From: Mitsuokella multacida DSM 20544
Lineage (GTDB): Bacteria; Bacillota; Negativicutes; Selenomonadales; Selenomonadaceae
Reading direction: 5' to 3'
NCBI RefSeq assembly: GCF_000155955.1
Contig: NZ_GG697141.2
Location: 875,270 to 939,269, forward strand
Length of the DNA stretch: 64,000 nucleotides
The translations under genes were made by a program, and so were the position numbers. Below the pieces are notes generated by a model that saw nothing but the letters and a program-made list of their open reading frames with translations, did not search any database and was not told the DNA's origin. Every line of letters starts with the position of its first letter. Positions within the stretch are counted from its first letter, which is position 1. Positions 57 to 62,956 of this stretch are shown here, one piece after another.

Positions 57-172
57 TCCGGTGATGATGCCTGAATGGTTCCACCTGTTCCCATACCGAA
101 CACAGTAGTTAAGCATTCAGAGGCCGAAAGTACTTGTCTGGAGACGGACTGGGAGGATAGGAAGTTGCCGGT
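57..172 (+). rRNA. rrf: 5S ribosomal RNA
   Basis: The segment has the conserved 5S core (CCATACCGAACACAG) and complementary ends (CCGG near 58, CCGG near 171) that close helix I. Bases 1-56 would be the 23S-5S spacer, so the rest of the rRNA operon lies to the left of the window. The tRNA run starts six bases after it and is probably co-transcribed. Confidence 0.93.
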
Positions 173-177
173 TTCAT

Positions 178-253
178 TCCTCGATAGCTCAGCCGGTAGA
201 GCACCTGACTGTTAATCAGGCTGTCGCAGGTTCGAATCCTGCTCGAGGAGCCA
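178..253 (+). tRNA. tRNA-Asn(GTT)
   Basis: Full cloverleaf with 7-bp acceptor TCCTCGA/TCGAGGA, anticodon loop with GTT, T-loop GTTCGAATC and encoded CCA. First tRNA after 5S. Confidence 0.96.
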
Positions 254-276
254 ATTTTTAAAACCCCTGGGGTGAT

Positions 277-353
277 TGGGGTATAGCCAAGTCGGTTAAG
301 GCACGGGACTTTGACTCCCGCATTCGTTGGTTCGAGTCCAACTACCCCAGCCA
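277..353 (+). tRNA. tRNA-Gln(TTG)
   Basis: Cloverleaf with acceptor TGGGGTA/TACCCCA, anticodon TTG flanked by CGGGA/TCCCG, T-loop GTTCGAGTC and encoded CCA. Confidence 0.95.
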
Positions 354-357
354 GTGC

Positions 358-433
358 GGTTCACTAGCTCAGTTGGTAGAGCACCTGACTTTTAATCAGG
401 GTGTCCCGGGTTCGAATCCCGGGTGAGCCACCA
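358..433 (+). tRNA. tRNA-Lys(TTT)
   Basis: Cloverleaf with acceptor GGTTCAC/GTGAGCC, anticodon TTT in stem CCTGA/TCAGG, T-loop GTTCGAATC and encoded CCA. Confidence 0.95.
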
Positions 434-461
434 TTTATATATGTCCACTTGATTTTTTCTT

Positions 462-536
462 GGCGCCATCGTCAAGCGGTTAAGACACCGCCCTTTCACG
501 GCGGGTTCATGGGTTCGAATCCCATTGGCGTCACCA
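462..536 (+). tRNA. tRNA-Glu(TTC)
   Basis: Cloverleaf with acceptor GGCGCCA/TGGCGTC, anticodon TTC in stem CCGCC/GGCGG and encoded CCA. A different isoacceptor (CTC) is present in three copies at the far end of the window. Confidence 0.95.
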
Positions 537-543
537 TCATCAT

Positions 544-619
<76 letters not shown>

Positions 620-625
620 TTTTAT

Positions 626-701
626 GGGCGATTAGCTCAGCTGGGAGAGCGCTTGCCTTACAAGCAAGATGTCAGCAGTTCGATCCTGTTATCGCCCACC
701 A
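626..701 (+). tRNA. tRNA-Val(TAC)
   Basis: Cloverleaf with acceptor GGGCGAT/ATCGCCC, anticodon TAC in stem CTTGC/GCAAG and encoded CCA. Confidence 0.95.
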
Positions 702-721
702 TTAAAACCTAATTTTTATAC

Positions 722-798
722 GGCCCGGTAGTTTAGTTGGTTAGAATGCCGCCCTGTCACGGCGGAGGTCATGGGTTCAAGTCCCATTCGGGTCGCCA
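722..798 (+). tRNA. tRNA-Asp(GTC)
   Basis: Cloverleaf with acceptor GGCCCGG/TCGGGTC (two G-U pairs), anticodon GTC in stem CCGCC/GGCGG, G discriminator and encoded CCA. Confidence 0.95.
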
Positions 799-846
799 CT
801 TGTTTATTACACAGCAATGTGTTATAATATTATCTAACTTGTAAAT

Positions 847-922
847 GCCTCGGTAGCTCAGTCGGTAGAGCAGGGGACTGAAAATCCCCGTGTCAGTGGT
901 TCGATTCCGCTCTGAGGCACCA
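847..922 (+). tRNA. tRNA-Phe(GAA)
   Basis: Cloverleaf with acceptor GCCTCGG/CTGAGGC, anticodon GAA in stem GGGGA/TCCCC and encoded CCA. Confidence 0.95.
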
Positions 923-930
923 TTTATCAA

Positions 931-1006
931 GCTGGTGTAGCTCAATTGGTAGAGCAGCTGACTTGTAATCAGCAGGTTGGGGGTTCAATTCCTCTCGCCA
1001 GCTCCA
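931..1006 (+). tRNA. tRNA-Thr(TGT)
   Basis: Cloverleaf with acceptor GCTGGTG/CGCCAGC, anticodon TGT in stem GCTGA/TCAGC, T discriminator and encoded CCA. Confidence 0.95.
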
Positions 1007-1017
1007 CTTTGCATTAT

Positions 1018-1091
<74 letters not shown>

Positions 1092-1111
1092 TTAGTCAGC
1101 AATTTGATACT

Positions 1112-1200
1112 GCCGGGGTGGCGGAACTGGCAGACGCAACGGACTTAAAATCCGTCGGTTGGAAACAACCGTACCGGTTCGATTCCGGTCCTCGGCACCA
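1112..1200 (+). tRNA. tRNA-Leu(TAA)
   Basis: Class II tRNA with long variable arm (GGTTGGAAACAACC), anticodon TAA in stem CGGAC/GTCCG and encoded CCA. Confidence 0.95.
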
Positions 1201-1234
1201 CCAATTGTATCAATACCTCTCATTTTCATATTAC

Positions 1235-1320
1235 GCGGTCGTGGCGGAATGGCAGACGCGCTAGCTTCAGGCGCTAGTGATGGCAACATCATGGAGGTTC
1301 AAGTCCTCTCGACCGCACCA
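1235..1320 (+). tRNA. tRNA-Leu(CAG), copy 1
   Basis: Class II tRNA with acceptor GCGGTCG/CGACCGC, anticodon CAG in stem CTAGC/GCTAG, variable arm TGATGGCAACATCA and encoded CCA. A diverged second copy is at 1481. Confidence 0.94.
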
Positions 1321-1344
1321 TCTAAAATCTTCATATTGTATCAT

Positions 1345-1430
1345 GCGGTCGTGGCGGAATTGGCAGACGCGCTACTTTGAGGGGGTAGTGTTCACAAGAC
1401 GTATGGGTTCAAGTCCCATCGACCGCACCA
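1345..1430 (+). tRNA. tRNA-Leu(GAG), copy 1
   Basis: Class II tRNA with anticodon GAG in stem CTACT/GGTAG (reading through TTGAGGG) and encoded CCA. The sequence is identical to the copy at 1574. Confidence 0.94.
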
Positions 1431-1480
1431 TTTGCTTAAAGCAGCACTTGGTGCTGTTTTCATAAAAAATTACATATCAT

Positions 1481-1567
1481 GCGGTTATGGCGGAATTGGC
1501 AGACGCGCTAGCTTCAGGCGCTAGTGGTGGCAACACCTTGGAGGTTCAAGTCCTCTTGACCGCACCA
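1481..1567 (+). tRNA. tRNA-Leu(CAG), copy 2
   Basis: Same anticodon as the copy at 1235. It differs in the acceptor (GCGGTTA/TGACCGC) and the variable arm (GGTGGCAACACC), so the pair is a diverged duplication. Confidence 0.94.
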
Positions 1568-1573
1568 TATCTC

Positions 1574-1659
1574 GCGGTCGTGGCGGAATTGGCAGACGCG
1601 CTACTTTGAGGGGGTAGTGTTCACAAGACGTATGGGTTCAAGTCCCATCGACCGCACCA
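1574..1659 (+). tRNA. tRNA-Leu(GAG), copy 2
   Basis: Repeat of the tRNA at 1345 with anticodon GAG. Last tRNA of the run; an intrinsic terminator follows. Confidence 0.94.
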
Positions 1660-3136: not shown

Positions 3137-3165
3137 TTGACTTTCGGTCGTGCATCCTGTACAAT
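3137..3165 (+). promoter_or_regulatory. Sigma-70 promoter of the 3.2-kb RNA
   Basis: TTGACT at 3137-3142, a 17-base spacer and TACAAT at 3160-3165. It is among the best promoter matches in the window and drives a transcript starting near 3172 that has no long reading frame. Confidence 0.8.
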
Positions 3166-3171
3166 AAAGAT

Positions 3172-3371
3172 AAGCCAAGGAAAGGTCAGGTTCACCCTTT
3201 CCAGACAGCCGATTTACTTACTCAGGATGGAGGAGAGTCCAATGGGCTAGTTAACGAGTCCAGTGGAACACAGTGTATCCCATGCATGACACGAACAACA
3301 CGAACGGAAGGTTACTATCTCACAGATAACCATCAGCGGTGACGAGAAAGCTGCTGATGGTTATTTTATTT
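3172..3371 (+). ncRNA. Unidentified structured RNA, ~200 nt
   Basis: Between a consensus promoter and a strong intrinsic terminator there is no substantial reading frame. Visible helices are GGAAAGG(3179)/CCTTTCC(3196), a hairpin GGTTACTATCT/AGATAACC (3310-3331), and the terminator stem ACCATCAGC(3329)/GCTGATGGT(3353) with a U-rich tail. GAGTCC occurs twice (3235 and 3255). The hairpin and terminator share bases 3329-3331, so they may be alternatives. I do not recognise tmRNA, RNase P, SRP or any common riboswitch. It may be a free small RNA, or a leader of the DUF362 operon that starts 140 bases downstream. An 8-codon ATG frame at 3227-3250 sits inside. Confidence 0.6.
3329..3371 (+). terminator. 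Intrinsic terminator of the 3.2-kb RNA
   Basis: Nine-base-pair stem ACCATCAGC/GCTGATGGT with a 15-base loop, followed by a T-rich tract (TTATTTTATTT). A second weaker hairpin, GGGGC/GCCTC followed by CTTTTT, lies at about 3449-3472 before the next gene. Confidence 0.8.
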
Positions 3372-3511
3372 ACTTTTTTGAGTCTGAAAAACAGGAAAAT
3401 AACGCAGCGCGTCGAATTTAAAAAACGTTAATAACATTAGAAGTAAAGAGGGGCGCAAGGCCTCCTTTTTCGTGTAACTCATCTTGTATATCTTAGGGGG
3501 ATCATTACATC

Positions 3512-18130: not shown

Positions 18131-18147
18131 AAGAAAAGATACGATAC

Positions 18148-18305
18148 GACTCCGAGCGAAATCCGCTAAGGCCGGACATCATGGGCTGGCTATGTGGATG
18201 AGCCAGGGTCCCGGGGGAAACGCCGGGGCCTTCCGTGATTGAAAAGGGGCGAAATCCAAGGGGCGAAGGCCATCCTCTTGCAATTGCGGGAGGGTGGCCT
18301 TTTTT
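18148..18305 (+). promoter_or_regulatory. Moco (molybdenum cofactor) riboswitch with terminator platform
   Basis: The order of elements follows the known Moco RNA motif as in E. coli moaA: P1 CTCC(18150)/GGGG(18246); a second helix AATC..AAGG / CCTT..GATT; GGCCGGACATCATGG; an inner hairpin TGGCT/AGCCA followed by CAGGG; a hairpin CCCGG..GGAAACG..CCGGGG; and the closing GATTGAAAAGG, which parallels TATCTGGAAAGG of E. coli. The expression platform is a terminator at 18266-18305. It precedes five Moco genes, so high Moco (or tungsten cofactor) would be expected to reduce their transcription. Aptamer identity is by motif comparison from memory. Confidence 0.8.
18266..18305 (+). terminator. Riboswitch-controlled terminator
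   Basis: Twelve-base-pair stem AAGGCCATCCTC / GAGGGTGGCCTT with one G-U pair, followed by T6. It lies 54 bases before the start of the first Moco gene. Confidence 0.85.
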
Positions 18306-43993: not shown

Positions 43994-44068
43994 GCGGAAA
44001 TAGCTCAGTGGTAGAGCACCACCTTGCCAAGGTGGGGGTCGCGAGTTCGAGCCTCGTTTTCCGCTCCA
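43994..44068 (+). tRNA. tRNA-Gly(GCC), copy 1
   Basis: Cloverleaf with acceptor GCGGAAA/TTTCCGC, anticodon GCC in stem CCACC/GGTGG, encoded CCA. An identical copy follows after three bases. Confidence 0.96.
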
Positions 44069-44071
44069 TTT

Positions 44072-44146
44072 GCGGAAATAGCTCAGTGGTAGAGCACCAC
44101 CTTGCCAAGGTGGGGGTCGCGAGTTCGAGCCTCGTTTTCCGCTCCA
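44072..44146 (+). tRNA. tRNA-Gly(GCC), copy 2
   Basis: Identical to the preceding tRNA; a 78-base tandem duplication. Confidence 0.96.
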
Positions 44147-44183
44147 TTTGCCTGATTCCGCTCTGCGGATCACATATATCAAT

Positions 44184-44260
44184 GGGCCTATAGCTCAGTT
44201 GGTTAGAGCAACCGGCTCATAACCGGTCGGTCCTTGGTTCGAGTCCAAGTGGGCCCACCA
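44184..44260 (+). tRNA. tRNA-Met(CAT), elongator or Ile2 type
   Basis: Cloverleaf with acceptor GGGCCTA/TGGGCCC-like pairing, anticodon CAT in stem ACCGG/CCGGT, encoded CCA. It lacks the three G-C pairs of initiator anticodon stems. Whether the C34 is modified to lysidine (Ile2) cannot be read. Confidence 0.9.
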
Positions 44261-44286
44261 AAATACAACTTTATAACCAAACACAT

Positions 44287-44364
44287 GACTCAGTAGCTCA
44301 GCTGGATTAGAGTATTTGACTACGAATCAAAGGGTCGGGGGTTCGAGTCCCTCCTGGGTCACCA
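44287..44364 (+). tRNA. tRNA-Arg(ACG), copy 1
   Basis: Cloverleaf with acceptor GACTCAG/CTGGGTC, anticodon ACG in stem TTTGA/TCAAA, encoded CCA. An identical copy lies in reverse at 46508. Confidence 0.95.
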
Positions 44365-44368
44365 TTGT

Positions 44369-44454
44369 GGGTAGGTGCCCGAGTGGTTAAAGGGAACAGA
44401 CTGTAAATCTGTCATCTTCGGATTACGATGGTTCGAATCCATCCCTGCCCACCA
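44369..44454 (+). tRNA. tRNA-Tyr(GTA)
   Basis: Class II tRNA with long variable arm, acceptor GGGTAGG/CCTGCCC, anticodon GTA in stem CAGAC/ATCTG-type pairing, encoded CCA. It closes the operon. Confidence 0.94.
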
Positions 44455-62728: not shown

Positions 62729-62803
62729 TGGTGACACCTATGGGATTCGAACCCATGAACCCGGCGTGAGAGGCCGGTGTCTTAACCGCTTGACGAAGGT
62801 GCC
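62729..62803 (-). tRNA. tRNA-Glu(CTC), third in order of transcription
   Basis: Minus-strand cloverleaf with acceptor GGCACCT/AGGTGTC, anticodon CTC in stem CCGGC/GCCGG, encoded CCA. Confidence 0.95.
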
Positions 62804-62805
62804 GA

Positions 62806-62880
62806 TGGTGACGCCTATGGGATTCGAACCCATGAACCCGGCGTGAGAGGCCGGTGTCTTAACCGCTTGACGAAGGCGCC
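62806..62880 (-). tRNA. tRNA-Glu(CTC), second in order of transcription
   Basis: As its neighbours, but with acceptor GGCGCCT/AGGCGTC: one A-T pair is replaced by G-C on both strands, a compensated change. Confidence 0.95.
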
Positions 62881-62881
62881 G

Positions 62882-62956
62882 TGGTGACACCTATGGGATT
62901 CGAACCCATGAACCCGGCGTGAGAGGCCGGTGTCTTAACCGCTTGACGAAGGTGCC
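62882..62956 (-). tRNA. tRNA-Glu(CTC), first in order of transcription
   Basis: Same sequence as the copy at 62729. It begins 24 bases after the gltX stop, on the same strand, so the three tRNAs may be read through from gltX. Confidence 0.95.

Follow-up and report, generated by a model that had tools for sequence, protein, structure and literature searches.

A putative autonomous small RNA family of the Selenomonadaceae with a predicted two- to six-codon minigene as its best-conserved element

What kind of gene lies behind a stem-rich stretch of DNA in Mitsuokella multacida, and does its RNA act on its own or on the gene that follows it? The stretch studied covers positions 3137 to 3379 (forward strand, as are all features below unless stated otherwise) of a window that comprises the whole 64,000 nucleotides of DNA analyzed, positions 875270 to 939269 of contig C6 in a 2.58-Mb genome; fold prediction gives a stem-rich RNA over its length. 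A preliminary description had read it as a structured RNA outside the known families, with its own promoter and terminator and no useful reading frame, and had offered a new riboswitch or a free small RNA (sRNA) as its possible nature. The promoter is indeed present (3137 to 3165) and is of the sigma-70 type, with TTGACT at 3137 to 3142, a 17-nt spacer, and TACAAT at 3160 to 3165. As a lone match from a sequence scan, this site is not significant (5 promoter-like sites were found in the 8 kb scanned, against 3.5 expected); in an alignment of 20 sequences, a similar promoter stands ahead of most homologs (unclear in L062 and cut off in L074). The small RNA would extend from 3172, about 7 nt past the -10 box, to 3370, at a U-rich run.

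The whole RNA (3172 to 3371) folds at -57.6 kcal/mol (z score, -2.7). At its 5' end is a hairpin (GGAAAGG/CCUUUCC, 3179 to 3202) that relatives, judged by eye, keep as a stem with other letters. The intrinsic terminator (3326 to 3370), whose apical part is GGUGACGAGAAAGC, had been given nine base pairs in the preliminary description. A terminator is there, but its stem is stronger than that, with 15 to 17 bp up to position 3364, a 9-nt loop, an energy of -24 kcal/mol (z score, -7.4), and a U-rich run behind it; it was missing from our first program list because that scan took only loops of 3 to 8. The terminator stem (helix 2) covaries, with 9 of 17 pairs changed on both sides, and 0 of 500 shuffles scored as high in covariation over the entire structure.

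The RNA in the window had no match at the gathering score among all 4227 families of Rfam (release 15), and a search of the RNA stretch relaxed to an E value of 10 returned no credible match, with four hits far under the cutoff. The earlier placement outside known RNA families thus agrees with the covariance-model search. A disguised housekeeping RNA was ruled out, since 6S RNA, tmRNA, and signal recognition particle RNA all scored over the cutoff elsewhere in the same genome. No description of the RNA was found in the available portions of open-license PMC papers, supplements excluded, including PMC6429828, PMC11109978, and PMC8632094. Elsewhere in the window, we observed a molybdenum/tungsten cofactor riboswitch (RF01055; 55.6 bits) at 18138 to 18265 on the forward strand, a 5S rRNA with a long series of tRNA genes behind it at 57 to 1656 (forward), and two further tRNA clusters at 43994 to 44451 (forward) and 62732 to 62956 (reverse).

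Conservation in relatives, which the preliminary description had proposed as a check, was borne out by blastn over 100 related genomes. Nearly the full RNA was recovered from two genomes of the same genus and short matches from others, several of which consisted of the GGAGGAGAGTCCRATGGGC core and the terminator with loop GGTGACGAGAAAGC. An exact-pattern scan of genome contigs (49 stretches) added Selenomonas (S. ruminantium, S. montiformis, S. ruminis, and an oral taxon), and in the 20-sequence alignment the promoter, the 5' hairpin region, a GCCGACAUG-like stretch, the core, and the terminator remained in register. A covariance model run over 189 genomes of the Selenomonadaceae matched 71 genomes at an E value of 0.1 or better. 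The core was seen at the inspected locus in 58 of the 189, and it was absent from four further inspected loci (L140, L141, L142, and L155) among the 71 matched genomes. Genera with the core numbered 11 of 30 (g1, g3, g4, g9, g14, g16, g17, g22, g25, g27, and g30).

Beyond this bacterial family, 380 genomes of the class gave 7 weak hits. Four were fetched (L151 to L154), of which three lacked the core; the other, L154, has a Shine-Dalgarno (SD) sequence and AUG GGC UAG without the rest of the RNA and was not counted as a member. With four of the seven outside hits inspected, the 380 class genomes held no convincing member outside the family. A pattern of an SD followed by Met-Gly-X-stop, which misses the two-codon form, matched 7 of 398 genomes of the phylum (10 of the 398 belong to the family); 6 of these were from the family and one (G661) from outside it. 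A scan of viral contigs returned a single stretch (L080), by eye not a member. We conclude that this is a real RNA family, with no Rfam entry or published description found, and that it has been seen only in the bacterial family of its host, the Selenomonadaceae.

We distinguished three forms of the RNA, whose 5' domains differ by eye. P1 is the type found in the window, and P2 is a paralog, present in the same genome on the minus strand (C6, 1117985 to 1118108); for 18 genomes, we inspected a pair of copies, one of the P1 type and one P2 paralog. P3 is a longer RNA of genus g9 and a named oral Selenomonas (L057, L130, L137, L139, and L143 to L146), with a promoter, the same terminator loop, and an SD-AUG-Gly element. 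The covariance model reached no more than the 3' part of P3 (positions 95 to 135 in many; the stretches at L130, L137, and L139 stop short of the core), and the SD with Met-Gly-X-stop sits more than 200 nt upstream of the aligned part. In oral Selenomonas, the micro-ORF element thus seems to form part of a larger RNA, about 570 to 590 nt from promoter to terminator (measured at L130 and L139). Rfam left the RNA unmatched at the P2 and P3 loci, where the sole hits, tRNA and Clostridiales-1, lay elsewhere. Some loci carry tandem cores, three at L016 and two each at L007 and L008, with the micro-ORF intact in each. We also observed a P2-like RNA (L156, genome G050) in which GGTGACGAGAA lies well downstream of the micro-ORF and outside the usual terminator context.

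The claim that the stretch holds no useful reading frame did not survive this comparison, as the window has two short ORFs, each of which recurs in the family. The first, micro-ORF 1, reads AUG GGC UAG (fMet-Gly-stop, 3242 to 3250) and follows an SD, GGAGG (3229 to 3233), 8 nt ahead of the AUG. Judged by sequence comparison, the best-conserved element of the family is this predicted SD, a perfect one placed at the optimal distance of 8 nt, together with the AUG-Gly-(X)-stop behind it. We clustered 76 members at 80% identity and counted one representative for each of the 40 clusters; it is important to note that the members are related and that these counts are not independent events. The spacer was 8 nt in 37 representatives and 9 nt in 3. 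A minigene, defined as an SD, two to six codons, and a stop, was present in 40/40, with the stop falling within 6 codons in all of them and within 4 in 38. Early stops were found in only 3/40 and 7/40 in the +1 and +2 control frames, and shuffling of the 3' sequence (5,000 rounds) gave a mean of 10.1 and a maximum of 20 of 40.

The core pattern demanded ATGGG, so that the AUG and the initial GG of the Gly codon were preselected while the last base of that codon and the stop remained free; the second codon was GGC in 28 representatives, GGA in 5, GGT in 5, and GGG in 2. All three stops occur (TAA, 20; TAG, 10; TGA, 10), at codon 3, 4, 6, or 7, with 0 to 4 codons between Gly and the stop, and the 40 representatives hold 18 distinct ORF 1 sequences. 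At the third position, the peptide has Q, R, P, W, H, Y, F, or L or no residue at all; for instance, the P2 copies of three genomes of the same genus end in CAG TAA, CAT TAA, and CAC TGA. Synonymous Gly codons together with varied in-frame stops are hard to explain without translation, and we infer that ORF 1 is translated. Further, in other phyla, many of the motif matches from the scan of genome contigs mark the starts of genes with long ORFs, in keeping with a ribosome-binding site that works.

Left out of the 40-cluster count were the upstream cores of tandem loci, same-locus duplicates, L154, nonfamily stretches with ORFs of at least 8 codons, L035 (where the stretch ends inside the ORF), and L147, a related locus at which the first AUG is open for 82 codons and a nested AUG GGC AGG UAA occurs. 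Also excluded were L040, L049, and L054 (Oscillospiraceae and Robinsoniella), with 2 to 4 codons after the motif and no other likeness seen. At L040:3330, in an Oscillospiraceae MAG, we observed a promoter-like site, an SD, and AUG GGC AAG UAA opening a possible structured RNA with a terminator. This RNA is otherwise unrelated to the family and is possibly a parallel case.

Most of the ORF 1 start lies in the 5' arm of a hairpin (3238 to 3267; -12.7 kcal/mol; z score, -1.85) that was seen in P1, weak in P2, and absent from P3 (mean z score over 40 representatives, -0.87). No pair of this hairpin changed on both sides, its 5' arm AUGGG is invariant, and one pair forms in just 10 of 21 sequences.

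The same patterns bear on whether this is an ordinary base-pairing sRNA, in which the purine-rich GGAGGAG and the terminator loop would pair with mRNAs and the tiny ORFs would be by-products. Such an RNA would be expected to bring its own promoter and terminator, as this one does, and the apical part GGUGACGAGAAAGC is invariant in the 20 aligned P1 sequences, is retained by most copies of P1 and P3 (L047 and L144 differ by one letter), and has no further exact copy in its own genome. However, the loop is lost in the g14 copies and absent from P2, and pairing with mRNAs does not call for synonymous Gly codons or for three different stops placed in frame at codon 3, 4, 6, or 7. A scan of the own genome for targets of the loop, allowing up to 2 mismatches, gave 27 matches, and the reversed control gave 16; because some loci were oriented differently from the match, neither this count nor a rough look for antisense sites close to gene starts speaks for or against pairing. 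We consider base pairing as the main function to be quite improbable.

The second reading frame, ORF 2 (3282 to 3329), has 15 codons (MHDTNNTNGRLLSHR) and closes with a UAA stop at the terminator base. In P1 and P2, the second AUG mostly lies 30 to 41 nt past the first and opens a frame of mostly 7 to 15 codons that ends at the terminator base. A leader-peptide attenuator is marked by a short ORF that runs up to the terminator, and by automatic count the ORF 2 stop fell at most 7 nt from the first G/C pair of the terminator in 23 of 32 representatives. The count admits any AUG that lies past ORF 1 and ahead of the terminator and opens at least 5 codons, not just those at +30 to +41. Shuffles (3,000 rounds) gave a mean of 3.5 and a maximum of 11, and the shifted frames gave 7 and 6. 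Four representatives scored as misses (L036, L052, L106, and L122) have the stop 2 to 5 nt past the automatic terminator start, at the usual UAACC/UAGCC site. Among the 32, a stop at the terminator base was not found in L004, L105, L119, L126, and L156, and in L073 the frame is lost. Since the ORF 2 peptides show little conservation and are short, it is the position of the stop, rather than the peptide, that looks selected.

What lies downstream varies. P1 is followed by a DUF362 gene in g1, g4, g16, g17, and g22, by an ABC-transporter gene in g3, by a transporter-like ORF in g25, by a secreted-protein-like ORF in g14, and by a convergent-looking ORF at L041 and L074. After P2 comes guaB in g16 and g3, with the exceptions of L135, where the next gene is co-oriented and not guaB, and L119, where guaB comes only past a reversed ORF; convergent-looking ORFs follow P2 at L111, L125, and probably L122. 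The P3 copy at L139 precedes DUF362, as P1 does. Neighbors were left uncalled at L011, L013, L104, L108, L112, L113, and L156. Pfam matches exceeded the cutoff for guaB (IMPDH) and the ABC gene and fell below it for an ADP-ribosylglycohydrolase (L111) and OPT (P3). The 45- to 60-residue ORF starts used at L041, L119, and L125 had no match over the cutoff, and most of the convergent neighbors were called from ORFs that lack a Pfam match.

Scanning without a shuffled control, we found a promoter-like site (9 or 10 of 12 positions) between the P2 terminator and guaB at all 9 loci examined, with TTGACA in 8, and one ahead of DUF362 (8 or 9 of 12) in 2 of ten Selenomonas loci (L004 and L078), where the gap after the terminator is 37 to 76 nt. 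In the window, the gap to DUF362 is about 140 nt and has no promoter-like site, and it holds a second terminator-like hairpin (3450 to 3464, from a program scan) that could insulate DUF362 from the RNA. The gene after DUF362 does carry EAL and GGDEF domains, and the suggested link to cyclic di-GMP extends to that and nothing beyond.

Because the downstream genes differ and guaB has its own promoter-like site, the RNA behaves, as far as these sequences indicate, as an autonomous gene and not as a riboswitch; for P2, the autonomy is apparent. The free sRNA of the preliminary description is therefore the alternative that holds up, given the RNA's own promoter and terminator, the lack of an Rfam hit, the conservation in relatives, and the paralog elsewhere in the genome. 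The new riboswitch, or any other metabolite-sensing leader, fares poorly. A structured RNA with a terminator does stand upstream of co-oriented genes at many loci, but a consistent set of such genes was not found, some neighbors are convergent, the 5' domains of P1, P2, and P3 differ, and Rfam has no match at the RNA. Moreover, its best-conserved piece is a predicted ribosome-binding site with a minigene. We regard a riboswitch as very unlikely.

A translation-coupled attenuator deserves closer attention. Here a ribosome ending ORF 2 would block the terminator, and DUF362 or another gene would be read through. The ORF 2 stop at the terminator base fits this reading, as does the recurrence of DUF362 behind P1 in five genera, and in Selenomonas the short gap of 37 to 76 nt, with a promoter-like site in just 2 of 10 loci, makes read-through into DUF362 conceivable. 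The layout that had first suggested an attenuator, a hairpin at 3310 to 3331 that overlaps terminator bases and is mutually exclusive with the terminator, is present in the window's genus, but it is not general: it folds weakly (-4.0 kcal/mol; z score, -2.0) and by eye is confined to three genomes of that genus. An attenuator also sits badly with the convergent-looking ORFs downstream of L041, L074, L111, and L125, where ORF 1 and ORF 2 are both intact, with the promoter-like site in front of guaB, with the variation of downstream genes among genera, and with the second hairpin before DUF362 in the window. On balance, we hold attenuation to be possible for DUF362 in Selenomonas and doubtful as an account of the family.

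Sponges of the CsrB/RsmY kind are GGA-rich small RNAs with a terminator. The present RNA shares both features, with several GGA motifs seen by eye and tandem cores in some species, and could on that basis be taken for a sponge that binds CsrA. However, CsrA (PF02599) had no match in four carriers, namely, the M. multacida genome, two others of the same genus (G001 and G002), and G023 (91% complete), whereas 46 of 60 genomes and the Escherichia coli and Bacillus subtilis controls matched. Barring a CsrA too divergent for PF02599, we rejected the sponge as a general explanation and consider it scarcely credible.

The reading we prefer, to which we give a probability of roughly 0.5, is that of an autonomous small RNA gene that belongs to a new family and would function via the ribosome, as a ribosome-gated regulatory RNA. 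The SD would capture a ribosome, which would make fMet-Gly(-X) and terminate at once. Minigenes with a strong SD are reported to keep ribosomes reinitiating (PMC8708949); here, too, the terminating ribosome would tend to restart without leaving, and part of the ribosomes would move on to ORF 2 and end pressed against the terminator stem. By eye, we noticed no matched take-off and landing codons of the kind used in T4 gene 60-like bypassing. Folding, stability, and the 3' end of the RNA might then depend on ribosome supply or initiation, and the effector part may be the terminator loop GGUGACGAGAAAGC of P1 and P3. The same source proposes that minigenes in cis protect mRNA from nucleases (PMC8708949), and the micro-ORF could serve RNA stability alone.

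A bolder claim is that the family represents a categorically new class of sRNA, an autonomous "minigene RNA" whose conserved product would be initiating and instantly terminating translation rather than a peptide or a base-pairing seed. It might act as a sensor or buffer of ribosomes, of initiator tRNA, or of release and recycling, with ORF 2 reporting ribosome arrival to the 3' end. We put this forward tentatively and think it rather unlikely. If translation is confirmed, the family would be one of stand-alone RNA genes selected for the translation of just two to six codons. Conserved, duplicated, autonomous minigenes in gut and oral bacteria would then make it possible to test directly what purpose is served by starting and at once ending translation on an RNA, with ribosome sensing, RNA protection, and tRNA or peptidyl-tRNA effects as candidates. 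More generally, an sRNA taken to have no reading frame can conceal one as its best-conserved feature.

Dual-function sRNAs such as SgrS, SR1, and RNAIII are small RNAs with their own promoter and terminator that also carry an ORF for a functional peptide of tens of residues. In contrast, the peptide predicted here is Met-Gly or Met-Gly-X, with X free. The uORF motifs ilvB and fthC (PMC11109978) and odc1 (PMC8632094) share with the present RNA an SD, a start codon, and an in-frame stop within a structured leader, and ilvB and fthC also have a terminator-like stem, as here. Those motifs have a consistent downstream gene, whereas here the neighbors vary and ORF 1 spans 2 to 6 codons. The closest elements in form are the two- to six-codon minigenes of mRNA leaders (axe-txe mg2, LEE1, LEE4, and B. 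subtilis ycbK), which likewise combine an SD, 2 to 6 codons, and an immediate stop and for which PMC8708949 proposes that ribosome binding or translation protects the RNA or tunes the next ORF. As presented there, they act in cis ahead of protein genes and in single systems (PMC8708949). Unlike them, the minigene described here is the best-conserved part of an apparently autonomous RNA family, occurs in tandem in some species, and has Gly as its second codon.
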